Assembly (NCBI RefSeq): GCF_008973485.1 | Contig: NZ_CP031223.1 | Location: 1,116,001-1,180,000 of the forward strand | Reading direction: 5' to 3' | DNA length: 64,000 nt | Source: Psychrobacillus glaciei | GTDB taxonomy: Bacteria; Bacillota; Bacilli; Bacillales_A; Planococcaceae | Part shown: positions 2,285 to 56,535 of the stretch, piece after piece | How the letters are laid out: each line of letters opens with the position of its first letter | Position numbering within the stretch: position 1 is the stretch's first letter | Position numbers and translations under genes: made by a program | Notes under the pieces: model-generated | What the model was told of the DNA's origin: nothing | The model's input: only the letters and a program-made list of their open reading frames with translations | Databases searched by the model: none

Positions 2285-2660
2285 TTTTACTTTTACAGAT
2301 CACAGTCTACATGAACCAGTGGGTAGATGATTAGAGTAGGGGGAACATGAGAAAAATAGATAGCTTCTATTGATAAAGAAGGCTTAAGTGGACGAAATTG
2401 ACTCTTCGTCCGCTTTTAAAAGAATAGGATGGAAATCTAATCTCTCATTATCCAAACCTTATGCAGCATGCCTCTACACATTCCAAGAGGGCGAGGGACA
2501 AATATCTGCCACAAGATTACCAAAAAAGTTGATGGAGAAGTGACGCATTCACTTCTCCATCAAAAAAATCTCTCGGTTATAAGGTAGCAAATGTTTCGTC
2601 CAAAGCACAAAGTATATCGTAAAAGCAATGTGTTTTTAATGGGTACTTGCACTTTTCTTG
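2285..2660 (+). repeat. Dispersed intergenic repeat, copy R1
   Basis: This fills most of the 508-bp gap between the DUF418 gene and yisK. It carries the shared core: a hairpin GGACGAA/TTCGTCC followed by CTTTTAAAAG; the block ACACATTCCAAGAGGGCGA; a long hairpin at 2530-2562 with arms TGATGGAGAAGTGA and TCACTTCTCCATCA; and the tail ATGTTTCGTCCAAAGCAC. The other copies are R2-R9 (see their entries). No open frame is conserved between copies, so I treat it as non-coding. Confidence 0.9.
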
Positions 2661-2746
2661 AAAGTTGTCGAAAAAAGGTGAAAAGAAAGTCAATTTGTAA
2701 TACACTAAGAATAGAAGTCAAAACAATTTGAAGGAGTGTCGACACG

Positions 2747-3643
2747 ATGAAATTATTATCATACCGATTAAATGATGGAATTTACTTTGGACCAAAAGTA
2801 AAAAAAGAAGAAGCAGTATGGGATGTACTAAGAATTCAAGAGACCCTTCAAGTATTGCCAAGCTTTCCAGGTACAATTGTAGAAGGAGTAAGTCTTGGTA
2901 TTGATTTCATTGAACAAATTAGAAAATTAGTCGAAGCAGCTCTGAAAAGTGAAAATCCCAATAGCTTCAAACATTCATTTACGGAAATCGAATGGTTATC
3001 ACCCATTCCCAGAACTCCTAAAAATATTATGGCAGTTGGTAAAAACTACGCCGATCATGCAAAAGAAATGGGCGGAGCAGCGAATTCCTTTGTAGTATTC
3101 ACTAAGTCACCAACTGCTATTGCAGCAGATGAGCAAACGCTTTCTGTACATGCAGATAAAACCTCTTCCTATGATTACGAAGGAGAGCTTGCGATTGTAA
3201 TTGGTAAAAAAGGAAAAGATATTCCTTCTAAACTAGCATATGACTATATATTCGGCTATACAATTGCCAATGATTTAACTGCTCGTGATATTCAAAAGAG
3301 ACACCAACAATATTTCTTAGGAAAAAGCTTAGAAGGTTCATGTCCACTTGGTCCCTATGTTGTAACAAAAGATGAAATACCTAACCCACAAGAATTAACC
3401 GTTGTGACGAAAGTGAACGATGAAATCCGTCAAAATGGAAAGACATCTGATATGGTGTTTTCAGTAGAGCAGATTATTGCGGACATTTCAAAAACAGTCA
3501 CATTAGAGCCAGGTGATATAATATTAACTGGAACTCCTGCAGGGGTGGGGAATGGATTTAATCCTCCTAAGTTTTTGAAATCAGGCGATATTGTGAAAAT
3601 TTCTATTGAAGGAATTGGTACTCTAGTGAACAAATTCGAGTAA
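2747..3643 (+). CDS. yisK: Fumarylacetoacetate hydrolase-fold protein YisK
   Basis: This 298-residue protein of the FAH superfamily closely resembles B. subtilis YisK, a metal-dependent enzyme reported to have oxaloacetate decarboxylase activity. Seen directly: GKNYADHAKEMG, DYEGELAIVIGKKG, the NDLTARDIQKR lid segment, and GDIILTGTPAGVG near the C-terminus. The acidic metal ligands are expected in the DYEGELAIV and NDLTARD region. The ATG at 2747 follows AAGGAG at 2731-2736. As in B. subtilis, yisL follows directly. Upstream lies repeat copy R1. Confidence 0.92.
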   Translation: MKLLSYRLNDGIYFGPKVKKEEAVWDVLRIQETLQVLPSFPGTIVEGVSLGIDFIEQIRKLVEAALKSENPNSFKHSFTEIEWLSPIPRTPKNIMAVGKNYADHAKEMGGAANSFVVFTKSPTAIAADEQTLSVHADKTSSYDYEGELAIVIGKKGKDIPSKLAYDYIFGYTIANDLTARDIQKRHQQYFLGKSLEGSCPLGPYVVTKDEIPNPQELTVVTKVNDEIRQNGKTSDMVFSVEQIIADISKTVTLEPGDIILTGTPAGVGNGFNPPKFLKSGDIVKISIEGIGTLVNKFE

Positions 3644-3699
3644 ATTACTAGCTGAAATGGTAAGATAGATATGTAAAGTAAACGATTGAGGTGAAATAA

Positions 3700-4062
3700 A
3701 TGGACTTTTTAGCAAGAACAGATTTACACATTACAACATGGGTAATCGCAATCATTTTGTTTTTTGTTGCACTAGCAATGGCTAATCCAAAAGTAATTCA
3801 CATGATTCTACGTGTATTTTATATTTTGGTAATTGTTTCAGGTGTTGCATTATTCATTAAAGGCATGGACTTTGACCAAGGAATGCTATATGGCTTCAAA
3901 CTTTTAGCTGGTATTCTTGTCATTGGGATGATGGAAATGTCATTAGTGAAAAAGAAAAAAGGAAAACCGTTCACATTGTTTGTCGTACTGTTTTTCGTTT
4001 TCTTCTTAATCGCTCTATTCCTAGGATTCAAATTACCAATGGGTATTAATTTCTTAGCATAA
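3700..4062 (+). CDS. yisL: YisL family (DUF1516) membrane protein
   Basis: This is a 120-residue integral membrane protein with about four hydrophobic segments and a single short basic loop (VKKKKGKPF), matching the DUF1516/UPF0344 family in length and layout. Its function is unknown. It sits 56 bp after yisK, the same pairing as in B. subtilis, which supports the name. The start ATG at 3700 is preceded by GAGGTGAAATAA. Confidence 0.85.
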   Translation: MDFLARTDLHITTWVIAIILFFVALAMANPKVIHMILRVFYILVIVSGVALFIKGMDFDQGMLYGFKLLAGILVIGMMEMSLVKKKKGKPFTLFVVLFFVFFLIALFLGFKLPMGINFLA

Positions 4063-4098
4063 AAATAAAAAGCGGCTTTTTCGCTTTTTATTTTTATG
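4063..4098 (+). terminator. Terminator after yisL
   Basis: A near-perfect inverted repeat is present: arms ATAAAAATAAAAAGCG and CGCTTTTTATTTTTAT around a short loop. It starts at the yisL stop and is U-rich in its 3' arm. Confidence 0.75.
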
Positions 4099-4178
4099 CG
4101 ACGAGCTTGCGCAGGAGCACCAAGATTTTGGCTCCGTCCGCTTTTTATTTTTATGCGACGAGCTAGCGCAGGAGCACC
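4082..4178 (+). repeat. 57-bp direct duplication carrying a dispersed 24-nt motif
   Basis: The 3' arm of the yisL terminator plus the following GCGACGAGCTTGCGCAGGAG-type sequence occurs twice with a 57-bp period. The 24-nt motif lies at 4098-4121 and 4155-4178. A reverse-complement relative lies at about 6832-6857, inside repeat R2, and a diverged one at about 31210-31233, next to repeat R3. This is non-coding. Confidence 0.8.
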
Positions 4179-4279
4179 ATAAGTGAGAGGGGCTTTCACC
4201 GATTAGGGAAAGCTCCTTTTCATTTCAGAGCCACAATGATAATTTTGAACATAAAGAACGAAAGGCAGGGAGCAGGCAA

Positions 4280-4453
4280 ATGTTAGGTATATCCTTACTC
4301 ATATTCGTCCTATTATTGATGATAGTATTTGTTATTGCTTCATTATTCCTGTCGAAACAACAAACTGCAAATTCTAGTTTTGAAAATGAACTTGATGAAC
4401 TACATAAAAGTATTATTCAGCAGTATGATCATAAGGAAAAGCCACCAAAATAA
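4280..4453 (+). CDS. Small single-pass membrane protein (57 aa)
   Basis: ATG at 4280 opens a 57-residue frame: about 23 very hydrophobic residues beginning MLGISLLIFVLLLMIV, then a charged tail with FENELDELHKSIIQQYDHKE ending in KPPK. A purine-rich GGCAGGGAGCAGG lies just upstream. A terminator hairpin overlaps the stop codon, which supports a real, monocistronic gene. No function is recognised. Confidence 0.65.
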   Translation: MLGISLLIFVLLLMIVFVIASLFLSKQQTANSSFENELDELHKSIIQQYDHKEKPPK

Positions 4454-4470
4454 TTGGTGGCTTTTCCAAT
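4436..4470 (+). terminator. Terminator of the 57-aa membrane protein gene
   Basis: The inverted repeat GAAAAGCCACCA / TGGTGGCTTTTC surrounds the stop codon, with the T-run inside the 3' arm. Confidence 0.75.
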
Positions 4471-4488
4471 GTTGAAAGAGACTACTTA

Positions 4489-4895
4489 TGGGCTTATGGT
4501 ATTGGTAGGGGCAGATGTCATCCGATTAGGGGTGGATAGACTTGCTTTATGGGCTTATAGCTACGTTTTATGAGCTAATGGATTTTGTATGGGCAGATGC
4601 CACCCGATTAGGGGTAGATAGACTTGCTTTATGGGCTTATAGCCACTTTTTATGAGCTGATGGATTTTGTAGGGGCAGATGCCATCCAATTAGGGGTAGA
4701 TAGACTTGCTTTATGGGCTTATAGCCACGTTTTATGAGCTAATGGATTTTGTATGGGCAGATACCACCCGATTAGGGGTGTATAGACTTGCTTTATGGGC
4801 TTATAGCCACGTTTTATGAGCTAATGAATTATTGTAGGGGCAGATGCCATCCGATTAGGGGTGGATAGACTTGCTTTATGGATTTATAGAAATTG
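4489..4895. repeat. 82-bp imperfect tandem repeat array (about 4.7 units)
   Basis: The landmark GCAGATG/GCAGATA recurs at 4511, 4593, 4675, 4757 and 4840 (periods 82, 82, 82, 83). Each unit has the form GGGCAGATGCCACCCGATTA, then GGGGTAGATAGACTTGCTTT, then ATGGGCTTATAGCCACGTTT, then TATGAGCTAATGGATTTTGT. The period is not a multiple of three and no frame is kept, so it is non-coding. The rest of the gap to 5120 shows no gene. Confidence 0.92.
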
Positions 4896-5120
4896 AAAGT
4901 GTTTATAGTGAAGAATTATACTTCCAAGATGACACAGTTTGGACGAATTAGAAGTAATATTTTGGACTTTCGTACTTAAACAATAGCGATTAAAATGTAG
5001 CTTTGATAAAATAACGTTGATATGTTTTAATTGTGTGTCTAGCTTCAGATACAAGCTGTCCCGGTGAATTTCGGAACAATAAATGTGTGTGTCGCTTTTC
5101 TAAATAGAGGAGGATTTTAC

Positions 5121-6560
5121 GTGAACGTTAAAAAGTGGTTTGTGGCCGCGTTATTAATAAGCGGACTTTGGTTAACATCAACAAAAGAGACAAATGCTGA
5201 GACAAATGCATCTATACATAACGAGAGTATTTACGATTTATATGTGGACCGTTATTTTAATAAGGTAGTTTCAAATGATATTAACGTCAATGCCCAAGAT
5301 CCAAATGCATTTGCTGGAGGAGATTTTCTTGGAATTGTAGAGAAGATGGATCATATTAAAGATATGGGGTTTACAATTATTTCAATTGGACCAGTTTTCG
5401 CAACTGACACATATGATGGAAAGCGTGTTCTAGATTTTAATGAGATTGAAAAAAGATTTGGAACGCCAGAAGAATTTCAGGAGCTTATAAAAGTAGCGCA
5501 TAAAAAAGGGATGAAAATTGTCGTCGGATTCCCGTTGAATAATTTTAGTGAAAATCATATTTGGAATATGGATCCTAAGAAAAAAGATTGGATTGTCAAT
5601 ACTGACAATGGTGTAATGCAAGTGGATCTAGCTAATCCAGAAGTACAGAAGGAATTAGAGAAAGCAATTGTGGATTTTGCTAAAAAGTATGAAATTGATG
5701 GTGTAAAATTTTCTCAATTAGAAGGTGCACCTACTTCATTTCTTAATGACTTGATTGCAGAAATCAAAGAAGTGCGTAATCCAATGTATGCTATTGCTTT
5801 AGAAGAATCAGATGCAAATTTGGATGCGCATTACTCCAATCAATTACTCGTTGATTTTAGAGAAGCATTTAAAAATACGGATTTACCTTCAGAAGGAATT
5901 GCTTCTACAACTGATAATGATTTATTAATGATTGATCAACTGAATACAGAGAGATTTACTTACTTTAGTGCGCTTGAGAATATGTTTCCTCCAACTCGCA
6001 TTAAAATAGCTATGGGTACAATTCTAGCCATGCCCGGAGTGCCATATATGAGTTATGGGACGGAAATCGCTATGAATGGGCAAATTCCTCAAGAAAGCCA
6101 TCAAGTGATGAACTTTCGAGTGGATGAAGATATCACAAATTATTTAAAAGATATCAATTCTATTCGCAATAAATCGGAAACACTTCGTACAGGTAAAACT
6201 GAACTGTTGAAAAATGAGAATGGTTATGTTGTATTTAAACGTTATTCAGATAAAGAAACGTTCATTGTAGTTGTGAACAATACAAGTGCTACACAACGAA
6301 TTGATTTATCGAGTAATGTAGTGGGGGAAAATAAAGAACTTCGAGGAATATTCGAATCAGATATAGTTCGTCCAGACAATGATGGGCAATATAGATTAGT
6401 TCTAGATCGTGAGGTCGTCGAAATTTATCAAGTAACCGACCGCAAAGGTTTAAATACAGCATATATAGTTGCAATGTGTGTAGCATATCTTTTGTTTGTC
6501 CTATTTTTAGTTATCGTATGGAAAAAAGGAAAACAAAAAAGACGCGAAGGAAAAGAATAA
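5121..6560 (+). CDS. Membrane-anchored GH13 (alpha-amylase)-like protein, probably catalytically inactive
   Basis: This 479-residue exported protein has a GH13 (beta/alpha)8 fold. GTG at 5121 is chosen because GAGGAGGA lies just before it and a signal peptide follows directly (KKWFVAALLISGLWL, likely cleaved after TNA). A longer frame from GTG 5064 has no ribosome site. GH13 landmarks are clear: FAGGDFLGIVEKMDHIKDMG, FGTPEEFQELIKVAHKKGMK and MPGVPYMSYGTEIAMNG. The catalytic motifs are altered: the usual DVVxNH is GFPLNN, the nucleophile motif GFRxD is GVKFS, and xxDNHD is MIDQLN. One transmembrane helix (TAYIVAMCVAYLLFVLFLVI) and a basic tail end the protein, anchoring it outside the cell. 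A binding or scaffolding role is inferred. Confidence 0.85.
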   Translation: MNVKKWFVAALLISGLWLTSTKETNAETNASIHNESIYDLYVDRYFNKVVSNDINVNAQDPNAFAGGDFLGIVEKMDHIKDMGFTIISIGPVFATDTYDGKRVLDFNEIEKRFGTPEEFQELIKVAHKKGMKIVVGFPLNNFSENHIWNMDPKKKDWIVNTDNGVMQVDLANPEVQKELEKAIVDFAKKYEIDGVKFSQLEGAPTSFLNDLIAEIKEVRNPMYAIALEESDANLDAHYSNQLLVDFREAFKNTDLPSEGIASTTDNDLLMIDQLNTERFTYFSALENMFPPTRIKIAMGTILAMPGVPYMSYGTEIAMNGQIPQESHQVMNFRVDEDITNYLKDINSIRNKSETLRTGKTELLKNENGYVVFKRYSDKETFIVVVNNTSATQRIDLSSNVVGENKELRGIFESDIVRPDNDGQYRLVLDREVVEIYQVTDRKGLNTAYIVAMCVAYLLFVLFLVIVWKKGKQKRREGKE

Positions 6561-6563
6561 AAT

Positions 6564-6604
6564 TGGAAAATGAGCTGACTAACACTTGAGTCAGCTCATT
6601 TTCT
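6564..6604 (+). terminator. Terminator after GH13-like gene
   Basis: The stem AAAATGAGCTGACT / AGTCAGCTCATTTT is followed by CTTAAAAG. Confidence 0.8.
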
Positions 6605-6777
6605 TAAAAGATAAGAAACTACCATGGCACAGGTTTGACAAAAGCCATCTCTATCATGAAAAAGCTAATTTCAACTTTAAACCAGTATTATTTTGATTGT
6701 TGGATACCCTATTAATTTTTGAGTATAAATCAAGCCGCTGTTTTCATGCAAAAGTATATGAATTTTCATACCAGGAA

Positions 6778-7335
6778 CAGGTTGACTTCCGCTGCAGGCG
6801 GACGTTTTCCAGGGAGCAAGCATCAAGCAGCTTCCTGTGCTCCTGCGTAAGCTCGTCGCAAAAATTAATTTCGCTGCGCTTCGTCCGAGGTCTTAATTTG
6901 CTTGCTAATCCCCTAAGATCCGCTGCCTTCCGCTCCAATCAACAGTACAAATAAGAAAGGAAATATGCTTCGGGAAAATAATGAACTGGTACTTTCCATG
7001 CTTTATAAATAGGCTATGTGGAACCTGAAAAAATAGATAGTATCTCTTGATGTAGAAGTACTGAGCGGACGAAATTGACTCTTCGTCCGCTTTTAAAAGA
7101 ATAGGAAAGGATTTATTCTCTCATTAACCAAACCTAATGCAACATGTCATTACCTAGTACAAGAGGGCGACGGACAAACGATTGCTACAAGATTACCGAA
7201 AAAAATGGATCGTGAAGTGACGCAGTCACTTCACGATCCACAAAAATTCCAACGGTAATAGTGTAGCTGATGTTTTGTCCAAAGCACTCTGAAAATAGTA
7301 AAGACAGGATGCACTTAAAGGTCGCTAGCGTTTCT
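6778..7335 (+). repeat. Dispersed intergenic repeat, copy R2 (GC-rich module plus hairpin module)
   Basis: This occupies the gap between the convergent GH13-like and DUF3231 genes. The left part (6778-6945) is the GC-rich module: CGCTGCAGGCGGACG at its start and GCCTTCCGCTCCAATCAAC at its end, interrupted by a reverse copy of the 24-nt motif. The right part (7017-7335) is the hairpin module: GCGGACGAAATTGACTCTTC, the long hairpin at 7206-7240 with arms TGGATCGTGAAGTGAC and GTCACTTCACGATCCA, then TGTTTTGTCCAAAGCACTCT. The repeat ends within about 10 bp of the DUF3231 stop codon. Confidence 0.9.
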
Positions 7336-7339
7336 CTTA

Positions 7340-7852
7340 TTAATGTTTTTCTGGGAAGTTTACATGAAGAGGAGGGGGTACTAACCATCCCTTACTTTTA
7401 CTTAACTTTAGCAACTTTGCACCTAGTTGTGCTTTACTCGTATGAAATTGCCCATACATCATTCCTATATCCTCTCGTATTGACATACCCATCGCTTGGC
7501 TGCATGCAACCAAACCAGCAGCCACATCCATAGAAAGTGCTGCACAAATTTCTGGATCATTGAATCGAGCTCCAACAGGAATATCTTCCAGTCGTGCTAC
7601 GGGACGAGCAGGTGGGGCAGGAGGAAGTCCAACTGCATTCACTTTTAATATTTTTTCTAGTTGCTTGCTTTCATCTTCCATGCATTGTACTGCTTCTTCA
7701 ATTATTTTTTTTAGATCATCATCACCTGTATGATTGAAAAACGTTTGATAAGCCGCTATTAGCCCATTGTTAGTAGCTAGATTTGCCCAAATTCCAAATA
7801 CTTCACCGTAATGCAATGGTTCATCACTCGGATTACCGCTTAATATTCCCAT
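7340..7852 (-). CDS. DUF3231 family protein
   Basis: This is a 170-residue protein of the DUF3231 family, a mostly helical, ferritin-like-looking family common in spore-forming Bacillales with no established function. The conserved start MGILSGNPSDEPLHYGEVFG is present and is preceded on the coding strand by GGAG at a good distance, so I start at 7852 rather than at an upstream ATG at 7981. The C-terminus borders repeat R2. Spore association is known for some relatives only by inference. Confidence 0.8.
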   Translation of the reverse strand: MGILSGNPSDEPLHYGEVFGIWANLATNNGLIAAYQTFFNHTGDDDLKKIIEEAVQCMEDESKQLEKILKVNAVGLPPAPPARPVARLEDIPVGARFNDPEICAALSMDVAAGLVACSQAMGMSIREDIGMMYGQFHTSKAQLGAKLLKLSKSKGWLVPPPLHVNFPEKH

Positions 7853-8002
7853 AAATACACTCCAACCCATAAAAAGATTCATGAATTTCTTCACGTATTC
7901 GTTATTATGTGGAGAAGTGACAGAATTATTCAGCTGAATAAAAATAACCGAAATTCTATAAATTAATAGAATTTCAGCCATAAAATTTTAAAAAGATAAG
8001 TT

Positions 8003-8854: not shown

Positions 8855-8872
8855 TTCCATCCTCCTAAATTA

Positions 8873-23199: not shown

Positions 23200-24379
<1,180 letters not shown>

Positions 24380-24384: not shown

Positions 24385-24671
24385 AATAAAAAAACATCAT
24401 ACATCCCTATAAAAAGGGACGAATGATGTATAATCCGTGGTACCACCCAGTTTGCTAAAAGTAATTTAGCCACTCTTCTTCGTAACGTGAAGGGGACGGT
24501 ATATGCTACTTCAAGTTCACATATACTGCTCAAAAGCCCATTCTATTTGACGTATGTTCTGTTTGCACCAACCACAGACTCTCTTCACATACAAGTTCAA
24601 ATATACTTTTCTCCGTCAAAGCATTTTGTATTGTTTTGAACATTATAGTATAGAAGAAAGTTAAAAATCAA
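24385..24671 (-). ncRNA. T-box leader of trpS (tryptophan specifier)
   Basis: On the minus strand: promoter TTGATT (24666-24671), 18 bp, TATAAT (24642-24647); a Stem I region with AGAGAG and the specifier context GAATGGGC, placing UGG (Trp) in the specifier loop; the T-box bulge sequence GGGTGGTACCACGG near 24435-24448; and a terminator (stem of ACATCATTCGTCCCT type with a T-run at 24385-24425) before the trpS ribosome site. The layout is a class I transcriptional T-box riboswitch. Uncharged tRNA-Trp would favour the antiterminator. Confidence 0.93.
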
Positions 24672-31192: not shown

Positions 31193-31207
31193 GAAAGCAA
31201 TATAAAT

Positions 31208-31505
31208 TTTGCGACGAGTAACCGTAGGAGCAGATGTTTAGTCCAAAGCAATGGGGGTATAGTGAAGACAAGAAGCACTTAAAGTGCACTTCACTTTTCA
31301 ATTAAAGTGCGTACTAATCTGATACCACTGAGATTTCCGCTGCAGGACGGACGCTTTCCGCGGGATGAGCGATGAGCTACTACCGTCGCATTTGCGTCGT
31401 TTTATGAAGGCTCACTTGTCTCAGTCATCCCGTGCTAGAGTAGCCGCCATTTCGATGCAATCCTCGGGGCTTGCTATCTATTCAGTTACGTCTCACTACG
31501 GCAAC
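31208..31505 (+). repeat. Dispersed intergenic repeat, fragment R3
   Basis: This is a truncated copy downstream of oppF. It begins with a diverged 24-nt motif (GCGACGAGTAACCGTAGGAG) and the end of the hairpin module (ATGTTTAGTCCAAAGCA, then GAAGACAAGAAGCACTTAAA). The GC-rich module follows from about 31330 (CCGCTGCAGGACGGACGCTT ... CGCATTTGCGTCGTTTTATG ... TGTCTCAGTCATCCCGTGCT). The GC-rich module has no insertion here, so it shows the uninterrupted insertion site. The ORF across it is not a gene. Confidence 0.8.
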
Positions 31506-31635
31506 GGTATGTGCCATATATCAAAAAAGCGAAAGTACATTTCCTAAAACTAGAGCTATTAGTAGAAGTGCCCTTTCTTTTAAATGGAATAATTGATAAA
31601 ATGAAGAAGTATAGGGGAAAGGAAGGATTATTTAT

Positions 31636-37793: not shown

Positions 37794-37976
37794 GTTGGAG
37801 CAAAAGTAGTTATTAGAAGTTAGACGTCCTATGTATGACGATATTGTGAAATGAGTATCTAATATATTGTATTTGTTAAACAGGCATGTTAAAGTAAGAG
37901 TGTGAAATAAATCACAAGATAACATACACCCCTTTGTTTGAACGTGAACATTTCTCCCATCCCCTTTGTAAAAAAA

Positions 37977-38023
37977 GAAAATACCCTTTCCTCACTTGGA
38001 GGAAGGGGTATTTTCTTTTTTAA
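37977..38023. terminator. Orphan strong hairpin, terminator-like
   Basis: AGAAAATACCCTTTCCTC pairs with GAGGAAGGGGTATTTTCT, with an A-run upstream and a T-run downstream. No gene immediately upstream explains it. It directly abuts repeat R4 and replaces the left part of that repeat. Confidence 0.7.
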
Positions 38024-38260
38024 AGATAGGAAAGTATCTAATCTCTCCTTAAACAAGCCTTACGCAAGTTGTCTCTACATATTCCAAGAGGGCGACGGAC
38101 AAACATCCGCCATAAGATTACTGAAAAAAGTGGATCGTGAAGTGACGCAGTCACTTCACGATCCACAAAAAAAACACCGGTAATAGTGTAGCGATGATTC
38201 GTCCAAAGCACCCTGGGAATAGAGAAGACGAGAGCACTCCACAAGAATTCTCCTAGTAAA
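38024..38260 (+). repeat. Dispersed intergenic repeat, copy R4 (hairpin module only)
   Basis: This lies between the convergent pepF and spxH genes. It contains CTACATATTCCAAGAGGGCG, the long hairpin at 38130-38166 (arms GTGGATCGTGAAGTGAC and GTCACTTCACGATCCAC) and GATTCGTCCAAAGCACCCTG. The first hairpin and GC-rich module are missing; the orphan terminator stands in their place. Confidence 0.88.
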
Positions 38261-43904: not shown

Positions 43905-44402
43905 AGTAGCGCTTAAAGGGTGCTAAAGTTTATCTTAAGCTACAGGCTGACGCTTTCGTTGGGGTGGGCGATGAGCCATTACCACCGCCTACCTCTTCAA
44001 TCAACGATGTAAATAAGAAAGGCAATATGTTAGGTCGAAATAATGAACTGTTGCTTAGAAAGAGCGTTTAGACGGAGTTGGTGGAACCTAGAAAGAAATA
44101 GGTAGCATCTATTGATAAAGAAGTGCTGAGCGGACGAGATTGACTCTTCGTACGCTTTTAAATGAGTAGGACAGTATCAACTCTTTCATTAAGCAAACCG
44201 AATGCACCTTGTCTCTACATATTCCAAGAGGAAGACGGACAAACATCTGCCACAAGATTACCGAAAAAAAGGCTCGTGAAGTGACGCAGTCTCTTCACGA
44301 GCCAGATTCCAACGGGAATAGTGTAGCCAATGTTTCGTCCAAAGCACTCTAGAAATAGTACAGACAAGATGCACTTAAAGAAAGCTAGTATTTTTCTTAA
44401 GG
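43905..44402 (+). repeat. Dispersed intergenic repeat, copy R5
   Basis: This is a complete two-module copy between yjbO and mgtE. The GC-rich module (from about 43935) is shortened: GGCTGACGCTTTCGTTGGGG, then ATGAGCCATTACCACCGCCT. The linker TAGACGGAGTTGGTGGAACC leads into the hairpin module with the variant hairpin at 44271-44303 (arms GGCTCGTGAAG and CTTCACGAGCC) and ATGTTTCGTCCAAAGCACTC. It ends only about 60 bp before the mgtE start. Confidence 0.9.
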
Positions 44403-45832: not shown

Positions 45833-45892
45833 ATAGCCGTTTTTCACACTTTCAACTTTAGGTGCATAAAGTAAAGGAAAAAGGATGTGTCT

Positions 45893-46297
45893 GTGAATTC
45901 TTTCAATGATCCTTTACTTTATATAAAAGGCCCACCTGTTTTTCATTTATATCCGATAGGCTCTATCATACAGATGAAAACAGAGATGGAAATGGAAGTA
46001 CCGATGGATGTACCAAAGAAAGTGCAAGACGAAAGTACCTCGATATATGAAATACGTACCAGTATGTCTAAGAAAACTCTTGCAATTTTAGAAAAGTTGA
46101 CGTTTCTAGCAAAACCATTTCAACGAAGAGCATATCGTCCACTTGTTTTTTATGTGACAGGTGGCGTGTATCTTCAAGGAGAAGTAGAGAAAGTGGATGA
46201 TGAGTTTGTCACTTTTTTGGTTGGATCTGAAGAAACCATTACGTATCGGGTAGACCAAGTGGAAAAAATAGTTTGGCGTGGAACCGAAATGAAATGA
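45893..46297 (+). CDS. CotO-like spore coat protein
   Basis: This 134-residue protein begins NSFNDPLLYIKGPPVFHLYP, resembling the PLLYI-Q-P opening of CotO, has a charged middle, and ends in a beta-rich domain (RPLVFYVTGGVYLQGEVEKV, then FVTFLVGSEETITYRV). The adjacent Cys-rich coat gene supports a morphogenetic spore-coat role as for CotO. GTG 45893 is picked by spacing from AAAGG; a GTG two codons earlier is possible. The family call is moderate. Confidence 0.6.
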   Translation: MNSFNDPLLYIKGPPVFHLYPIGSIIQMKTEMEMEVPMDVPKKVQDESTSIYEIRTSMSKKTLAILEKLTFLAKPFQRRAYRPLVFYVTGGVYLQGEVEKVDDEFVTFLVGSEETITYRVDQVEKIVWRGTEMK

Positions 46298-46298: not shown

Positions 46299-46333
46299 TT
46301 AAAAAAACTATCCTGAGAAGGATAGTTTTTTTT
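46299..46333 (+). terminator. Terminator after cotO-like gene
   Basis: AAAAACTATCCT / AGGATAGTTTTTTTT. Confidence 0.9.
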
Positions 46334-46339: not shown

Positions 46340-46995
46340 ATAAGAAAGTATATGGATTATCGTCTTGCGAAACCAAGGTTTCTAGTACTTTAAAGTATTA
46401 AATAATACCACGGGTATCCGTTTCACCGCATTCGCATTTGTGATAGCTCATCTGTCTCACTCATGAGGCCACTGAAAAAGTCCAATTTTCCCGAAAATGA
46501 AAATTTCATAAAACTTCATTCCCAAAAAAGTACTATTTTTAGCAACTAAAGTGCGGGTAAGAATTTTCAGTATTTTCAAATTTAAATATTTAGTCACTTT
46601 TTCAGTGGACTCTCACTCATCCTGCTGGAGTCGTCACCTTTCACTACGATCAACAGTGCAATTAAGAGAGATAATATACGTGGAAGAAATAACGATCCAA
46701 TATTCTCAGATTTTTATTAATAAGGCAAGTGGAAGCTGAAAAAATAGATAAAATCCATGAATAAAGAAGTGCTGATTGGACGAAATTGACTCTTCGTCTG
46801 CTTTTAAAAGAATAGGAAAGGATTTAATCTCTCCTTATTCAAACCTTATGTACCTTGTCTTTACACATTTTAAGAGGGCGACGGACAAACATCCGCCACA
46901 AGATTACCGAAAAAAGTGTAAACGATGTTTCGTCCGAAGTACTCTGGAAATAGTAAAGACTAGATGCACTTAAAGGACGCTAGCATTTTTCTTGA
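46340..46995 (+). repeat. Dispersed intergenic repeat, copy R6 (carries a MITE, lacks the long hairpin)
   Basis: This lies between the convergent cotO-like and cotY/Z genes. The GC-rich module is split by a 148-bp insertion (separate entry). The hairpin module follows (GGACGAAATTGACTCTTCGT, AAGAGGGCGACGGACAAACA), but after CCGAAAAAAGTG it jumps directly to ACGATGTTTCGTCCGAAG, so the long hairpin is absent. Confidence 0.88.
46465..46612 (+). mobile_element. MITE-like element M1 (148 bp)
   Basis: The ends are 17-bp inverted repeats GAGGCCACTGAAAAAGT and its complement (one mismatch). It is flanked by the 8-bp direct repeat TCACTCAT (46457-46464 and 46613-46620). There is no transposase frame, so it is presumably mobilised in trans. 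It is related to the element at 55213-55402 but in reverse orientation and lacking about 42 bp of the interior. Confidence 0.88.
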
Positions 46996-50092: not shown

Positions 50093-50230
50093 ATGTATGG
50101 CTACTGTGGTGGAGAATATCCAAGCTACGGTGAGGGTTGTGGTTACGGCCACGGCGGAAATCGAAGCTTTATATTGATTGTCGTACTATTCATTCTATTA
50201 ATCATTGTTGGTAGAAGCTTTCTCCCTTAA
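50093..50230 (+). CDS. YjcZ-like sporulation miniprotein (45 aa)
   Basis: A 45-residue frame: a Gly/Tyr-rich N-terminus ([20 protein letters not shown]), then one transmembrane helix ([15 protein letters not shown]) and a short end, the layout of the tiny YjcZ family of sporulation membrane proteins. GAGGAGAGGAGGG precedes the ATG. A CATACTATA element about 30 bp upstream could be a sporulation -10, but no matching -35 is seen. Confidence 0.85.
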
Positions 50231-50264
50231 TCCAAAGATAATCAAAATGTGAGGGGGAAAATAA

Positions 50265-50510: not shown

Positions 50511-50582
50511 TTTGAATAGTTAGCATAATTATAGGTTTAATGAGATAAAGGTTAGGGTAAAAAGTAATAGGAGGTGGGGAAG

Positions 50583-50888: not shown

Positions 50889-50935
50889 ATAAAGGATTAT
50901 AACTTGATAAAACTTAGTCCTTCCAATATTAAATA

Positions 50936-50970
50936 AAAAAATACCGATGGTTTCATCGGTATTTTTTTTG
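50936..50970 (+). terminator. Terminator after the 101-aa gene
   Basis: AAAAATACCGATG / CATCGGTATTTTTTTT. Confidence 0.92.
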
Positions 50971-51083
50971 CATCATAAATTCTTAGGCATCAAAATAACA
51001 AAACTAGTTTTATAACTGAAAATTAATATTCAATCTAACCATAAATCTTGTTAGTAAAAATACTAGGACACTAAAGTAAATAA

Positions 51084-51124
51084 AGGTCCAACAGCACTTG
51101 TTATATGCTTGTTGGACCTTTGTT
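51084..51124 (-). terminator. Terminator after Lys-rich protein gene
   Basis: The stem AAAGGTCCAACA...TGTTGGACCTTT pairs GGTCCAACAAGCA with TGCTGTTGGACC just beyond the minus-strand stop. Confidence 0.75.
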
Positions 51125-51134
51125 AACCAATACT

Positions 51135-51557
51135 CTAATTACGACCTTTTTTCTTTTCAGAAGAATCTTTTTTAGGTCCAATCTTCTTTTTGTCTTCTTT
51201 GTTTTTTTTATGACTGTCCGCTTCCTTGTTAGTATCGTCATCTACTTTTTTATCCGTAGTTTCTTTTTTGTTTTGGTGGCTGTTTGCATCTTTTTGATGA
51301 TCACCCTTTTTTGCATCTTCCACTTTCTCATCTTCTATTTTGTGACCGGCTTCTTTTTTATCACTACCATCCGTATCCCTTTTATGCGGTGGTACTTTTT
51401 TGTCAACAATGTCTTGGTTGAGCTCAACTTCATTATCAGTCGAGGAAGTAAGATTTTTCGTTTTTTGTTCAGAATCTTTTGGCCCGTGTCGCTTTTTTTC
51501 TTTTGGTGTTCCTTCTGTCAAAAGGTGATCAATCTCATTCTTGTTATCTTCTGTCAA
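51135..51557 (-). CDS. Lys-rich disordered protein, possible CotG-like coat component
   Basis: This 140-residue protein is highly charged: about 33 Lys and seven His, many Asp/Glu, and no Cys, Phe, Tyr or Trp. Runs such as DKKEAGHK, SHQNKKE, SHKKNKED and SSEKKK give a quasi-repetitive pattern. It must be intrinsically disordered. It has its own terminator and runs divergently from the cotB-like array, the position held by the basic CotG next to cotB in B. subtilis. TTG 51557 with GAAAG upstream is a weak start. A functional link is inference. Confidence 0.6.
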   Translation of the reverse strand: MTEDNKNEIDHLLTEGTPKEKKRHGPKDSEQKTKNLTSSTDNEVELNQDIVDKKVPPHKRDTDGSDKKEAGHKIEDEKVEDAKKGDHQKDANSHQNKKETTDKKVDDDTNKEADSHKKNKEDKKKIGPKKDSSEKKKGRN

Positions 51558-51810
51558 AATCTTTCACTACTTTCTATAATGTAATGTCACTATTACAGAC
51601 TATGTGAAATAGCGTTATTCTGTTCGTAATTTTGTTATTTTCTTTCGGTATCATATTATTAATTTTAAAGTACACTGAAAAGTTTATTTAAGTATGGAAT
51701 TAAAGACCCATAGATCTTGAACAATTATACTAAAATAGGCGTTTAACCAATGCTTTGCCATTCCAGGATACATATAATTATTAAGATACTATAAAAGGGG
51801 GTTAGAAAAA

Positions 51811-52302
51811 GTGAATAAAAAGATGATACTTTCTCTAGTTGATAGAGTTATTAAGGTAGATAGAGGTGGTCCTGAATCCCGTGTGGGTATGCTGTTATCA
51901 GCAGAAGATGACCACTTTACATTGCTTACAGAAGACGATGGAATTGTTTTTTATAATACACAACACATTAAGAGCCTGACGTATAATACAAAAAATCAAG
52001 TGGATTTTGGGATTGAAATTCCAAAAGACTTTGATTTCATACAAGCTAATGACTTCAGAGGAATATTGGAGAAATTAACACTACGGTGGGTAAAAATTAA
52101 CCGAGGTGGACCAGAAACGTTAGAGGGAGTAATGGATGTTGTTACAGATGATTTTGTGACAATTGTAGCAAATGAAGAAATAATTCGAGTTTCTTTGTTT
52201 CACATTCGGAACATTAGCTATGGTGTAAAACTTGAAAAAACGAAAGAGACTGAAAATAAAAAATCTGATGACAAGGAAAGTAAGAAAAAAGAAGACAAAT
52301 AG
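51811..52302 (+). CDS. CotB-like spore coat protein, short form
   Basis: This 163-residue protein has two CotB-type beta modules: VIKVDRGGPESRVGMLLSAE with FYNTQHIKSLTY, and WVKINRGGPETLEGVMDVVT with RVSLFHIRNISYG. The RGGPE signature and the HIKSI strand are the hallmarks of the B. subtilis CotB N-terminal half. The Ser-rich tail of CotB is replaced by a short KKSDDKESKKKEDK tail. AAAAGGGGG precedes GTG 51811. It is first of three adjacent CotB-like genes. Confidence 0.85.
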   Translation: MNKKMILSLVDRVIKVDRGGPESRVGMLLSAEDDHFTLLTEDDGIVFYNTQHIKSLTYNTKNQVDFGIEIPKDFDFIQANDFRGILEKLTLRWVKINRGGPETLEGVMDVVTDDFVTIVANEEIIRVSLFHIRNISYGVKLEKTKETENKKSDDKESKKKEDK

Positions 52303-52347
52303 TAAAAGGTAAAAAACTATATAAAGAACTGAATAGCTGAAAGAGGC

Positions 52348-52379
52348 ATTCGTCGCTTTTATTTAACGAAGCGACGAAT
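52348..52379 (+). other. Intercistronic hairpin between cotB-like genes 1 and 2
   Basis: ATTCGTCGCTT and AAGCGACGAAT form a perfect 11-bp stem with a 10-nt loop, ending nine bases before the ribosome site of the next gene and lacking a T-run. It may be a processing or stability element rather than a terminator. Confidence 0.6.
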
Positions 52380-52403
52380 ATTCAAGGAAGGAGGCGCCAG
52401 ATA

Positions 52404-54074
52404 TTGCTAGTTGAAAACTTAAAGAAAGTATTATATGAACATAAAAAAATGAAAATAGGTATGTATTTAAGTGACAATCAATTTACAGAAGGAATTTTGT
52501 TGGATGTTAAACAAGACCACCTTGTTATGGAAGTGAATAAGAAAATAGTATATTTTGCAATGCATTCTATTCAAGCTCTTTCTATAAATGCCAAAGATTT
52601 TTGCAAAACTGACAAACTTTGTTCTTATCTCGACAAAAATGACTTAACAGATGTTTTAATAGCCTTAAGGTACAATTGGGTCACCATTAATAGTCTAAGC
52701 AAATTTGCACTAAATGGTGTTCTTACTAGCATATTACATGATCACATTGTCTTAATTAATAAAAAGGAACTACTCTACATTCCTAAACCATATATATCCA
52801 ATATTTACAGTGAGTTAACTAGAGCAGATATGACCTATTTAAATAATAAAGAGCAATTAATACTCCAAGAACTATATAAATCAAATATAAGTAAAGGATT
52901 AGTAGAAATAAAAGAACCCAATTTGGAAAGTAATCAAGAAAAAGTTAATCAAGAATACTGTATTTTTGAGCATGAGAAGCTAACCGAACAGTCCAACTTG
53001 GATAAAATGGGGGAAATAAAAGCTTATCCGTTAGAGAAGCTTGATGAAGATGATTTTATAGAAAAAAGAAATAACTTTGAATCAGCTAATAGTTCACAAA
53101 TTACAGTGATGCCCTTAGAATCAAATCAAAACCCTAATAGCATAAAAGACCTCATTTTACTCGAGAGAAATGAAGAAACAACTGAACAACAAAACTACTC
53201 TAAGGAAATGGAAACAGAATACCTTCAGCAAGATGAGCTAACTATTGTTAATAATCTTGAAATCACAATCAGCAATGAAGTGGAAAATAATGTTGGATCT
53301 CTTATTTTGGAAGGTCCGAATGAAATAATACAGGAAGTTGGAAATGGTAAAAATAAACGTTTAAAGCTTTATCCAAAGTCCAAAATTAAAATAAAATCAA
53401 ATTTACTTCAACAAAATTCTTTAGAGCAAGTAGAAAAAAGTATAATAAAAATTGATAATGTAGAAAACTCGAAGATTTTAAAGGGAGATCCATTAACAAG
53501 AACGAATACCCCCCTAAAGCAGAATCACAAAAAAACACTATTAACTGCATGGAGTGCTTTAAATAGTGACCAATCTACAATTACTATTCCCAAAAAATCC
53601 AAAACTAAATCTAAACATCTAAATAGTAATAGAATGTCAGATAGTCTGGAAATTCAAACTGAACTAGTTCATACATTATCTCCTAAAAGTAACATTACGG
53701 ATAAACGAATTAATAAAGCAGCTTTTGAGGCAATGGATGAAAAAAACATTCTGGCTGAAAAAAAAAACTTTCTTAAACTTGCAAAACCATTAAGTCCAAA
53801 AGAAGAAAAAGCATTGTTAGAGAAACAGTATTTTGCATTAATGAACTATGCTGCAAAAAAAGTTCAAAAATCAATTAGGTTGGAGCAGCAACCTGAACTA
53901 AGTAATTCTTTGAATAATAATAGAGAACTTAGTGAGCAATCTAAATTACTAGAAACATCCACAATGCGTCGTTCAATAAACCAAAAAGTAGAAGATGAAT
54001 TGATGGAAAAACAATACTATTCTTTAATGAAACATGCGGCAAAGATGTATCATCAAGTAAGAGACCATCAATAG
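52404..54074 (+). CDS. Large CotB-like spore coat protein with long low-complexity region
   Basis: This 556-residue protein has two N-terminal CotB-like modules (KIGMYLSDNQFTEGILLDVK ending in YFAMHSIQALSI; WVTINSLSKFALNGVLTSIL ending in LYIPKPYISNIYS), which have lost the RGGPE signature. A long Glu/Asn/Gln/Lys-rich region follows (about 150-460), probably disordered. The C-terminus carries two copies of an EKQYxxLMxxAAK motif (about residues 473 and 535). TTG 52404 follows AAGGAGG. It has the expected layout of a coat protein, but only the N-terminal modules support the CotB call. Confidence 0.68.
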   Translation: MLVENLKKVLYEHKKMKIGMYLSDNQFTEGILLDVKQDHLVMEVNKKIVYFAMHSIQALSINAKDFCKTDKLCSYLDKNDLTDVLIALRYNWVTINSLSKFALNGVLTSILHDHIVLINKKELLYIPKPYISNIYSELTRADMTYLNNKEQLILQELYKSNISKGLVEIKEPNLESNQEKVNQEYCIFEHEKLTEQSNLDKMGEIKAYPLEKLDEDDFIEKRNNFESANSSQITVMPLESNQNPNSIKDLILLERNEETTEQQNYSKEMETEYLQQDELTIVNNLEITISNEVENNVGSLILEGPNEIIQEVGNGKNKRLKLYPKSKIKIKSNLLQQNSLEQVEKSIIKIDNVENSKILKGDPLTRTNTPLKQNHKKTLLTAWSALNSDQSTITIPKKSKTKSKHLNSNRMSDSLEIQTELVHTLSPKSNITDKRINKAAFEAMDEKNILAEKKNFLKLAKPLSPKEEKALLEKQYFALMNYAAKKVQKSIRLEQQPELSNSLNNNRELSEQSKLLETSTMRRSINQKVEDELMEKQYYSLMKHAAKMYHQVRDHQ

Positions 54075-54094
54075 AAATGTAAGGAGATGTGATC

Positions 54095-54769
54095 TTGAAT
54101 AAAATTATTCAAAGTCTTATGAAGGAAATAGTTCAAATAGAGGTTTCGGGAAAGAATCAGATTAATGGAACAGTTATTGATTTAGGAAGTGACATAATGG
54201 TACTTTTTAATGGTGAAGATTTTATGTACATCCCTATAAAACATGTACATGGCTTTAGAGTCGGTCGTAACAATGAATACGATATTCAATACCCCACAGA
54301 GTTCCCAAGTATAATTGCAGATGAAAATAATCAAGAATTATCTATAATAGAAGTTCTTAATCAAGCTAAAGGAAATTATGTTGAACTATTCGTAACAAAC
54401 GATAAACCACTTCATGGATATATAAAGCAGATAATGAGTAACTATTTTGAATTTTTTTCTCCTATATATAAGACGATGTATATTTCTATGAGTCATTTGA
54501 AGTGGCTAATTCCCTATAGGCAAAATGAAAGTCCTTATGAATTAGGCGACAAAAAGTTGTTACAAACAAGTAATGACTCATTAGCTAGCTCATTTGAAAC
54601 ACATGTTGAAAATCTAAAAGATAAAATTGTTGTATTAAATATTGGAAGTAATAATAGTAAAATAGGTAAAATAAAAGATGTGCAACAACAAATTGTTGAG
54701 ATTCAACCAGCAAGAACACAATCGATTTATATAAATTTAGATCATATTCAAACATTACATCAAGTATAA
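54095..54769 (+). CDS. CotB-like protein 3 (three beta modules)
   Basis: This 224-residue protein is built of three diverged CotB-like modules: VQIEVSGKNQINGTVIDLGS with MYIPIKHVHGFRV; VELFVTNDKPLHGYIKQIMS with MYISMSHLKWLI; and IVVLNIGSNNSKIGKIKDVQ with IYINLDHIQTLHQV. It has no tail. TTG 54095 has AAGGAG at eight bases (a GTG two codons earlier is too close). It is 20 bp after gene 2, so genes 2 and 3 form an operon, closed by a terminator. Function is inferred from module similarity and location. Confidence 0.68.
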   Translation: MNKIIQSLMKEIVQIEVSGKNQINGTVIDLGSDIMVLFNGEDFMYIPIKHVHGFRVGRNNEYDIQYPTEFPSIIADENNQELSIIEVLNQAKGNYVELFVTNDKPLHGYIKQIMSNYFEFFSPIYKTMYISMSHLKWLIPYRQNESPYELGDKKLLQTSNDSLASSFETHVENLKDKIVVLNIGSNNSKIGKIKDVQQQIVEIQPARTQSIYINLDHIQTLHQV

Positions 54770-54785
54770 TTTGATATTTTAATAG

Positions 54786-54816
54786 TGGAAGCATGAAATA
54801 CTTCATGCTTCTTGAA
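54786..54816 (+). terminator. Terminator of the cotB-like array
   Basis: GAAGCATGAA / TTCATGCTTC followed by TTG; a weak T-run. Confidence 0.65.
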
Positions 54817-54864
54817 AAGATCTTAAAACAAAATACATAAAACCTCCTGTCATTTAGGGAATGT

Positions 54865-55079
54865 ATATATAGTCAGTATGGTATTATCTTTTCTCTACAC
54901 ATTTCGTGATGGCGTTAGATAATCCACAACAGGATTGAAAAAGGGTTGTGAAGTGACTTAGTCACATCATGATCCTTTTGAATTCTAGCGGTAATAGTGT
55001 AGCCAATGTTTTGTCCAAAGCGCTTTGGAAATAGTAAAGACAAGATGCACTTAAAGGGAGCTTGCAGTTTTCTTAAAGA
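54865..55079 (+). repeat. Dispersed intergenic repeat, degenerate copy R7
   Basis: The hairpin module without its first half: TTTTCTCTACACATTTCGTG, an eroded long hairpin at 54942-54975 (GGGTTGTGAAGTGAC / GTCACATCATGATCC, held partly by G-U pairs), then GCGGTAATAGTGTAGCCAAT and GTTTTGTCCAAAGC. It is the oldest-looking copy and the first of three in tandem. Confidence 0.82.
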
Positions 55080-55845
55080 ATAAGAAAGTATATAAATTTG
55101 TGAGCCATGAATAGGTTGATTTTTGCTGCAGTCGGACGCTTTCGGTGTGGTGAGCGATAAGCCATCACCGCCGCATTTGCGTCGTTTGTGATGGCTCATC
55201 TGTCTCACTCATGCGGCCACTGAAAAAGTGACTAAATATTTGAATTTGAAAATACAGAATATTGTTACCCCCACTTTCATTGGTAAAACCTTAATAATAA
55301 GCAGAATCACCCCCATTTTAGTAGCTAAAAATAGAACTTTTTTAGGAATGAGTTTTTATGAAATTTTCATTTTCGGGAAAATTGGACTTTTTCAGTGGCC
55401 TCTCACTCATCGCACTGGAGTCGCCGCCTTCCGCCTCAATCAACTGAGTAAATAAAAAGACAATTTGCTAGGTTGAAATAATGAACGGTTGCTTATAAAG
55501 AGCGTATAGACGGAGTTGGTGGAATCTTGAAAAAAAAGATAGCACATATTGAAAAAGAAGCGCTGAGCGGACGAAATTGTATCTTCGGACGCTTTTAAAA
55601 GAATAGGAAAGGATTTATTCTCTCATTAACCAAAACAAATGCATTATATCTTTACATTTTTCAAGAAGGCGACGGACAAACAACCGCCACAAGATTACAG
55701 AAAAAAGTGGATGGAGAAGTGACGCAGTCACTTCTCCATCCACAGAAATTCCTATGGTAATAGTGTAGCCGATGTTTCGTCCAAAGCACTCTGGGAATTG
55801 AGAAGACAAAATGCACTTAAAGGACGCTTGCGTTTTTCTTAAAAG
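55080..55845 (+). repeat. Dispersed intergenic repeat, full copy R8 (carries a MITE)
   Basis: The most complete copy. The GC-rich module has a foldback (AGCCATCAC ... GTGATGGCT) split by the MITE at 55213-55402. Then come TCGCCGCCTTCCGCCTCAAT, the linker TAGACGGAGTTGGTGGAATC, the first hairpin, and the long hairpin at 55707-55743 with perfect 17-bp arms GTGGATGGAGAAGTGAC. The tail runs to CTTGCGTTTTTCTTAA. Confidence 0.9.
55213..55402 (-). mobile_element. MITE-like element M2 (190 bp)
   Basis: It has 17-bp terminal inverted repeats (GCGGCCACTGAAAAAGT left; complement of GAGGCCACTGAAAAAGT right) and an 8-bp target duplication TCACTCAT at 55205-55212 and 55403-55410. Its reverse complement aligns with element M1 along most of its length. 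The extra interior segment includes GGGGGTAACAATATTC on the minus strand. No coding capacity. Confidence 0.88.
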
Positions 55846-56535
55846 ATAAGAAAGTATATGGATTATCGTCCTGCTAAACGAGTGTTCATAGTACTTTAAA
55901 GAATTAAATAGTACCGCGGATTTCCTTTTCAGGTGTACGCGTTCAGCGGGGGCGCCGCATTCGCGTCGTTGTGATGGCTCATCTGTCTCAGAGGAACGAA
56001 GGGTAAGAGCGCCACATCGTGTGGCAACGCCTTCGTTACCAACATCCTGTCGGCCACCATCAGGTGTCGCCACCTTTCACTACAATCCATTAAGTGAGTA
56101 GTTCCTAGTAAGAAAGTATATGAAATTGATATACTAGAAATCCAGTATTCACAACGACTTGAAGTGATTTTAATGGTGTCTTCCTTAAACGGGATGTCCT
56201 ATATATTTTTACTTTTATCGTACACAGTATACATAAATCAGCGGGTAGATGATTAGAATTGGTGGAACCTGAAAAAATAGTTAGCATTCATTGATAAAGA
56301 AGCGCTGAGCGGACGAAATTTCATCTTCGTCCGCTTTTAAAAGAGTAGGTAAGGATCTATTCCCTCATTAACAAAACATTATGCACCATGTCTTTAAATA
56401 TTCCAAGAGGGCGACGGACAAACACCGCGACAAGATTACTCTATCGGTAATAGTGTAGCCAATGTTTCGTCCAAAGCACTCTTGAAATAGAAAAGACAAG
56501 ATGTACTTAAAGGGCGCTTTCGTTCTTCTTAAGAA
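55846..56535 (+). repeat. Dispersed intergenic repeat, copy R9 (hairpin deleted)
   Basis: This copy is tandem to R8. Its GC-rich module has a different palindromic insertion at 55991-56042 (GAACGAAGG...CCTTCGTT enclosing GCCACATCGTGTGGC) close to the MITE insertion site. In the hairpin module, CAAGATTAC runs straight into TCTATCGGTAATAGTG, so the long hairpin is gone. The first hairpin (GCGGACGAAATTTCATCTTC) is intact. R7-R9 fill the gap up to the transporter gene. Confidence 0.88.

Follow-up and report, generated by a model that had tools for sequence, protein, structure and literature searches.

The orientation of insertion sequences (IS) of the IS200/IS605 family is reported to recapitulate the direction of replication, with insertion into the lagging-strand template, and a similar bias is described for Tn7, through TnsE, and for IS families with beta-clamp-binding transposases (PMC5371812). 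Tn7 and IS200/IS605 are also reported to favour termination regions, and IS200/IS605 elements have subterminal secondary structures (PMC6006769). Group IIC introns insert at intrinsic terminators, and introns without an endonuclease use primers at the fork (PMC4424553). Repetitive extragenic palindromic (REP) elements are described chiefly from gaps between codirectional or convergent genes, in an article whose main text contains neither 'leading strand' nor 'terminator' (PMC3733652). Replication-directed orientation is reported for transposons that have enzymes of their own. Here we describe a dispersed repeat without a recognised gene, detected in a stretch of 64,000 nucleotides of the Psychrobacillus glaciei chromosome (the window; positions 1,116,001-1,180,000 of the 4.33-Mb contig NZ_CP031223.1). 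It is 94-100% fork-directed in four genomes and is in addition placed at terminators and opposing stop codons.

The repeat is built of two modules. M2 (approximately 310 nt) consists of a hairpin, P1, followed by a long imperfect hairpin rod and a 3' end reading GGACGCTTGCGTTTTTCTTA or similar. M1 (approximately 430-470 nt) lies upstream of M2 and is composite; it encloses the Rfam family Bacillaceae-1 and, in two copies of the window, a miniature inverted-repeat transposable element (MITE). The original prediction listed nine copies or fragments in one orientation, all downstream of plus-strand genes and three of them in convergent gaps. A profile search recovered M2 on the plus strand in all nine stretches (36 to 319 bits), each 3' of a plus-strand open reading frame (ORF), and the three gaps are indeed convergent (opposing ORFs end at 7340, 38364 and 47159). 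Some copies had to be redrawn. The stretch 31208-31505 contains the repeat, not as a full copy but as a 72-nt M2 remnant plus M1; the stretch 54865-56535 holds three M2 in tandem, the first 5'-truncated and the other two complete, separated by M1; and the copies starting at 46340 and 55080 are each interrupted by a MITE, in opposite orientations. Window copies are mutually 60-84% identical over 300 nt in a repeat comparison. A 19-nt core pattern, allowing up to 3 mismatches, gave 133 genome matches vs 2 for the reversed control. In the ORF list, two minus-strand ORFs (113 and 152 codons) overlap repeat copies.

The orientation of the repeat was determined in the window together with 99 further 20-kb stretches, a sample of 2.04 Mb or 47% of the genome. 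The M2 profile search of this sample yielded 209 raw matches, reduced to 122 non-overlapping ones; reverse-strand overlaps caused by the palindromic sequence were settled by best score. The ORF starting at contig base 1 was recognised by eye and we take it to be DnaA or DnaA-like. Sampled stretches as far as 2,056,087 had a positive GC skew (except one of -0.001), and all those from 2,079,409 onward a negative one, which places the switch between these positions. A dif consensus gave one match with 7 substitutions, approximately 0.4 Mb off the skew switch, which decides nothing in a 47% sample. In total 107 of the 122 M2 matches were fork-directed and 15 fork-opposed (65 vs 4 above 150 bits), and M2 orientation switches where the GC skew switches. 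With the arms pooled, 73 forward and 60 reverse matches of the 19-nt core pattern were counted genome-wide, seemingly the equal numbers expected of an unbiased repeat; the bias shows once the arms are separated.

The copies could also be 3'-untranslated region (3'-UTR) elements of neighbouring genes, a function that the original prediction had suggested for the upstream genes. The replication bias would then merely mirror the excess of leading-strand genes, which made up 81% of our own ORF-based calls (1398 leading, 332 lagging). Copies are few in divergent gaps, as this explanation would have it, and REP repeats are likewise described mostly between codirectional or convergent genes (PMC3733652). 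The cleanest evidence for replication comes from the convergent gaps, because gene strand sets no direction there: 28 M2 copies above 100 bits were fork-directed and 2 opposed (binomial p 9e-7). Counts with and against the fork were 37:3 in codirectional leading gaps, 3:0 in the few cases in codirectional lagging gaps and 2:0 in divergent gaps, out of 159 convergent, 620 codirectional leading, 61 codirectional lagging and 173 divergent gaps. Nine of the 122 matches, including two strong fork-opposed copies, were omitted from these counts, their midpoints lying in no called gap, and the tests of gap-type density treat copies as gaps. The 28:2 count contradicts a 3'-UTR origin of the bias, and the 3:0 count also speaks against it. 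The sharpest positional signal, moreover, is the opposing stop codon (see below), and 16 of the 19 stop codons abutted belong to lagging-strand genes, though leading gene ends are more numerous. We consider the 3'-UTR explanation quite improbable.

Two other repeats in the same sample had no such bias. The short dispersed repeat TTTGCGACGAG..GCAGGAGCA occurred 12 times with and 15 times against the fork, and the MITE was found with the fork in 2 and against it in 3 of only five copies. M1 matches above 60 bits without M2 were distributed 28 with and 12 against the fork. Below 60 bits the counts were 12:16 for M1 alone and 20:3 for M1 next to M2. Agreement in strand was required for counting an M1 next to M2, so the 31:0 of such M1 depends on M2. 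The genome's nine matches to a group II maturase domain were also all fork-directed, several of them nested and therefore representing few independent events.

Three clear fork-opposed copies were found (contig positions 2686340, 3432395 and 3639586), each abutting an opposing stop codon. A fourth strong opposed match, at 1231375, is part of a separate palindromic element, and several weaker opposed matches resemble further halves of this ACACATGTGTTGATTAACC-ended element (nine places inspected). The palindromic element itself is large, has ACACATGTGTTGATTAACC-like ends and encloses diverged M2-like halves or rods in inverted orientation; it was seen near 578701, 1231375, 1475538, 1823883, 2221949 and 2607744, and is perhaps a MITE-like relative of M2.

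Orientation in relatives was read from 149 rows transcribed by hand from the listed part of 422 matches (one G004:C4 row was omitted). In three long-chromosome assemblies 34 of 34, 49 of 52 and 53 of 56 transcribed rows fit two arcs, vs shuffle means of 23, 35 and 36 and shuffle maxima of 31, 41 and 43. The GC skew of one 20-kb region per relative had the sign expected for leading-strand-directed copies. Relative G003 (7/7) is uninformative, since shuffles also reach 7; no row of G012 was among the matches listed, and a per-contig count for G007 (39/42), transcribed by hand and incomplete, was not used. These data support the conclusion that the orientation of the repeat follows replication direction in this genome and in three relatives, and bear out the replication-strand bias proposed in the original prediction.

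An orientation that switches at origin and terminus in several genomes would also be expected of polar chromosome-organisation signals, kept in register by a motor or segregation protein that reads them. Motor-guiding sequences are short octamers, unlike the M2 rods. The rods are long and intergenic, their placement is linked to terminators and stop codons, and their number ranges from 4 to at least 143 matches per species; the consensus does not contain GAGAAGGG (checked by eye). A role of this kind is highly improbable.

Complete M1 starts were found in 19 cases, 8 behind the end of an earlier M2 and 11 behind other sequence. A terminator score (hairpin plus T-run, pass at -7) was passed by 8 of the 11 host-preceded starts, vs 42 of 400 randomly chosen positions behind leading genes (p 3.5e-6); among the remaining three, one scores -6.6 and one lies behind sequence resembling an M2 end. 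The left flanks of M1 are T-runs with no fixed tetranucleotide, and the exact left end is uncertain. At tandem junctions the score was passed by 1 of 8 M2 ends, and a strong terminator is accordingly unnecessary for stacking. The sole visible inverted ends at these junctions are TAAGAAA at the M1 start and TTTCTTA at the M2 end.

At the other side of the element, 78 complete 3' ends were recorded: 41 lie before the start of a codirectional gene and 37 before the end of an opposing one. In 19 of the 37 the distance to the opposing stop codon is between -5 and +10 nt; the list of distances includes at least three matches to the palindromic element (539276, 1475538, 1824208). Most often (6 of 19) the opposing gene uses the element's last three bases, TTA, as the complement of its TAA stop, and in 5 others the stop codon comes immediately after the terminal four bases (CTTA or CTTG). 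Fork-directed copies make up 16 of the 19; the three opposed copies are also among the 19, which shows that gene-end placement has a weight of its own. We infer that in a bidirectional terminator the T-run comes within a few bases of the opposing stop codon, and that an element joined behind the hairpin therefore ends at this codon. For the orthologue of the gene abutted at 7340, a different tandem repeat in two relatives (G012 and G018; L271, L272) ends at the TAA stop of the gene and has the terminus GCGCTTGCGCTTTTCTT in common with M2. The terminus GGCGCTTGCGCTTTTCTTR was found in 49 of 150 genomes of the order, including other genera, in some cases in tandem at approximately 121-125 nt.

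The fold of M2 is conserved. RNA folding of two single copies gave z-scores of -9.0 and -9.1 vs shuffles, and in a covariance model of the rod built from 21 sequences of this genome and many relatives, 15 of 29 pairs had changed on both sides. The sequence of the apical hairpin varies freely with compensatory changes, although some copies, such as two in the window, lack this hairpin. That the repeat is an RNA or DNA structure rather than a gene, as originally predicted, agrees with this conservation. RNAalifold on the unadjusted alignment of 57 copies detected P1 alone. As to an RNA gene on the plus strand, the tests point to different strands: by minimum energy the antisense reading folds better in 53 of 57 copies of this genome and in 30 of the 46 sequences of a mixed set (15 from this genome), while the pair table held 17 G-U vs 8 A-C cells on the sense strand. 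The apical hairpin is preceded by at least 5 A in 9 nt, an antisense U-tract, in 27 of 36 copies and followed by at least 5 T in the sense direction in 1 of 36. Judged from sequence, the apical hairpin appears terminator-like on the antisense strand and P1 terminator-like on the sense strand.

These hairpins bring in a second explanation, in which selection and not insertion sets the orientation. Copies would arise in both directions, and those whose antisense terminator faces head-on transcription would be kept for halting transcripts that run against the fork, chiefly from lagging-strand genes. The antisense U-tract in 27 vs 1 of 36 copies is what this explanation expects, as are the 21 alignment rows, which by eye are A-rich ahead of the apical hairpin, the 19 of 37 M2 ends at an opposing stop codon (16 of them fork-directed) and the fact that all three clear opposed copies abut such a codon. 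The distribution of copies above 100 bits is also in its favour, with 30 in 159 convergent, 40 in 620 codirectional leading and 2 in 173 divergent gaps. However, 41 of 78 copies lie ahead of the start of a codirectional gene, where no lagging gene is in need of a terminator; codirectional leading gaps are biased 37:3, the 3 resembling halves of the palindromic element; and a stricter search for hairpin plus U-tract identified an antisense terminator in just 8 of 19 stop-abutting copies, one of them doubtful. Selection would need to purge nearly every opposed insertion. We regard this explanation as unlikely, but as the main competitor.

The reading that we favour, with a probability not quite reaching even, is that of a non-autonomous mobile repeat that inserts on the lagging-strand template, just 3' of terminator hairpins, and itself carries hairpins resembling terminators. 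A new copy of M1 plus the M2 rod, without a recognised gene, would join just 3' of an intrinsic-terminator hairpin, probably while the template is single-stranded behind the fork, with the result that nearly all copies are fork-directed. The M2 3' end, a weak small hairpin with T-run, could host further units and produce stacks. The terminator-like hairpins on both strands would let the element sit between convergent genes, and the apical hairpin could become the terminator of an abutted opposing gene. Insertion into single-stranded DNA, the enzyme involved and termination of transcription by any of the hairpins are inferred here. Our data suggest that the repeat spreads through DNA exposed during replication, and it may help to end transcription; insertion and selection for antisense termination may both act. 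A more far-reaching version, in which replication-coupled, terminator-seeking repeats with an unrecognised enzyme became the polar antisense terminators of the genus, stacking on their own ends, taking over the ends of lagging genes and barring head-on transcription, seems to us doubtful.

Several observations weigh against insertion behind terminators on the lagging-strand template. Stacking on M2 ends is left unexplained by a strong terminator (1 of 8 junctions), and several 5'-truncated M2 copies start without one. The abutment of stop codons by opposed copies is not predicted by a purely replication-driven rule. If both opposed copies outside the called gaps were convergent, the count would become 28:4 (p 1.9e-5), and the overall 65:4, set against the 81% share of gene strand, gives a p of only 0.003. 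M2 had no terminus preference in the sample, unlike the reports on Tn7 and IS200/IS605: the 300 kb around the skew switch, which contribute 137 kb to the 2,044 kb sampled, contain 2 of the 81 copies above 100 bits, and approximately 5 were expected. No enzyme linked to the repeat was found; neither the M1 nor the M2 profile matched within 1.5 kb to the left or right of the genome's single Y1 transposase gene, and in relative G002 45 M2 matches were obtained but no Y1 match. The orthologous gaps are too diverged to show exact ends or a target duplication, and no insertion with identical flanks was found among them. Because the M2 end is a weak terminator and there is no excess at the terminus, we slightly lowered our confidence in this reading and raised that in selection.

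The repeat could instead be a conventional MITE whose inverted ends are very short and which is moved by a DDE transposase with a preference for targets linked to replication. This would account for the TAAGAAA that M1 start and M2 end have in common in inverted form at tandem junctions, and orientation bias is reported for Tn7 TnsE and for IS families with beta-clamp-binding transposases (PMC5371812). Seven bases are weak evidence, though; a target duplication was not identified in the highly diverged orthologous gaps, and the other MITE of this genome is unbiased in its five copies. We consider this explanation improbable.

Compared with IS200/IS605, the repeat is similar in following replication and in its subterminal secondary structures, and differs in that a T-run and no fixed target tetranucleotide is seen 5' of it, and in lacking a terminus preference. 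Linkage gives no support to mobilisation by a Y1 or REP-associated tyrosine transposase (RAYT). With group IIC introns such as B.h.I1 the repeat has in common its placement directly behind intrinsic terminators; fork priming is described for introns without endonuclease. A group II intron derivative was rejected, as the catalytic core including domain V was not found: no group II family of Rfam matched in the window, in 20 M2 loci or in 5 further loci, and no reverse transcriptase was seen, although the Rfam library does detect real group II introns elsewhere in the genome. Four such intron loci that were examined are nested in the reverse-transcriptase gene of another intron and are uninformative on terminator targeting. 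REP elements and bacterial interspersed mosaic elements (BIMEs) with RAYT resemble the repeat in that they are palindromes found between genes, both downstream of genes and where two genes converge, but the M2 rod is much longer and polar. Neither M1 nor M2 lies beside the RAYT-like gene, where another palindrome is found. Like the repeat, bcr1 and other MITE-like repeats of Bacillus are described as dispersed, non-coding and belonging to one species group. The repeat acts like a combination of known behaviours, but lacks a linked Y1 gene, a group II core and a copy at the RAYT-like gene.

No Rfam family matched the M2 rod at gathering score in the window and 20 loci, where RF01690, in M1, was the only match of the repeat, and a scan of five loci gave no convincing sub-threshold match. 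RF01690 (Bacillaceae-1) was present in 9 of 20 examined M2 loci, each time on the M2 strand and inside the M1 profile match (beyond the window: L003, L006, L010, L011, L012, L015, L019, L030 and L048). It is tabled as a candidate RNA (PMC2864571) and filed in Rfam as a small RNA (sRNA) gene, whereas here it forms an inner part of a composite repeat that is dispersed in the genome. These results suggest a second look at Bacillaceae-1, as a component of a mobile repeat. An M1 match was present within 350 nt upstream in 49 of 69 sampled M2 copies above 150 bits. M2 was truncated at the 5' end in 17 cases, at the 3' end in 8 and at both ends in 11, with 62 complete; the excess of 5' truncation is weakly suggestive of reverse transcription.

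The repeat differs in presence between species. At the window sites at approximately 44 kb and 46 kb (17 orthologous gaps, filled plus empty, were listed at each), several relatives have a short gap lacking the element, while in others related or different repeats occupy it. Together with tandem stacking and terminator adjacency, this lends indirect support to copying by a directional process, as proposed in the original prediction. The covariance model of the rod had matches in all 19 searched genomes of the genus (4 to at least 143). Identity within the genome reaches 93%; the best-scoring match in a relative is 79% identical over 268 nt, and shorter pieces are higher. Exact matches to the M2 core pattern occur in two records of Psychrobacillus soli. 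M2 is not confined to one genus, because Cytobacillus citreus has a copy of 177 bits (L286:2159-2413), pointing to wider spread or transfer; as judged by these profile scores, the M2 family spans more than one genus. A plasmid or phage carrier was rejected, as no record of the plasmid or phage collection matched. A literature search returned no paper with the sequence words of the repeat or with oriented repeats at terminators; subscription papers were mostly uncovered by it and we make no claim of an undescribed family.

If insertion on the lagging-strand template is true, the repeats would be a natural record of single-stranded template exposure behind the fork, could be used to infer replication direction and past inversions, and would offer a test of whether mobile repeats supply terminators that limit head-on collisions. 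The features of the window are listed in Table 1.

Table 1. Repeat modules, hairpins and inserted elements in the window (positions counted from its first nucleotide)
Feature	Position	Strand	Remarks
M2, complete	2352-2659	+	254 bits; M1 fragment only, upstream at 2204-2347
M1 of the 7029 copy	6748-7058	+	125 bits
M2, complete	7029-7338	+	319 bits; CTTA end (7339) abuts stop codon 7340-7342 (TTA on +) of opposing gene 7340-7981
Apical hairpin of M2	7206-7241	-	T run after hairpin on minus strand; terminator-like for head-on transcription; A-tract ahead of apical hairpin also at 2537, 38139, 44278 and 55716, shorter at 54950
M2 3' remnant, 72 nt, M1 next	31227-31298	+	36 bits
M1 without subsequent M2	31322-31532	+	118 bits
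Host hairpin and T-run replacing P1 of M2 at 38015	37971-38021		inverted repeat
M2 joined to host terminator	38015-38239	+	195 bits
M2	44096-44398	+	294 bits; short spacer only at this site in several relatives (e.g. G003, G015, G005)
Intrinsic terminator of gene 45887-46297	46307-46333	+	score -12.0; M1 directly behind T-run
M1, 5' half, split by MITE	46340-46469	+	remainder 46616-46748
MITE with GGCCACTGAAAAAGT ends in M1	46462-46612	+	control element
M2, apical hairpin absent	46740-46993	+	234 bits
M2, 5'-truncated, head of tandem array	54886-55074	+	135 bits
M1 of second unit, split by MITE	55080-55505	+	matches 55080-55219 and 55407-55505; abuts preceding M2 end
MITE with GGCCACTGAAAAAGT ends in another M1	55213-55404	-	opposite orientation
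M2 of second unit, complete	55531-55840	+	317 bits
P1 hairpin of M2 and T4	55567-55596	+	terminator-like, sense; equivalent hairpin predicted by folding
M1 of third unit, complete	55846-56271	+	390 bits; abuts preceding M2 end
Rfam RF01690 Bacillaceae-1, internal to M1	55987-56053	+	63.2 bits, E 3.1e-9
M2 of third unit, apical hairpin absent	56273-56530	+	244 bits

Some further elements were observed. The short dispersed repeat TTTGCGACGAG..GCAGGAGCA occurs in the window at 4093-4120, 4138-4190, 6837-6864 and 31203-31232, and a piece related to it interrupts some M2 copies at one position. The RAYT-like Y1 gene is single in the genome (contig 998144-998482, L256) and has the palindrome GTGTTACTGGTGCCTGGCACCAGTAACAC nearby. 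In our reading, the nested group II introns lie at the YADD region of the reverse-transcriptase gene of the other intron at all four loci (contig 2321307, 2346238, 3049464 and 3562683; L290-L297). The window also contains a tandem repeat with an 82-nt period (4481-4890), the copies of which are 65-91% identical to the first, and a T-box leader (RF00230) on the minus strand at 24412-24628, upstream of the minus-strand ORF 23381-24367.

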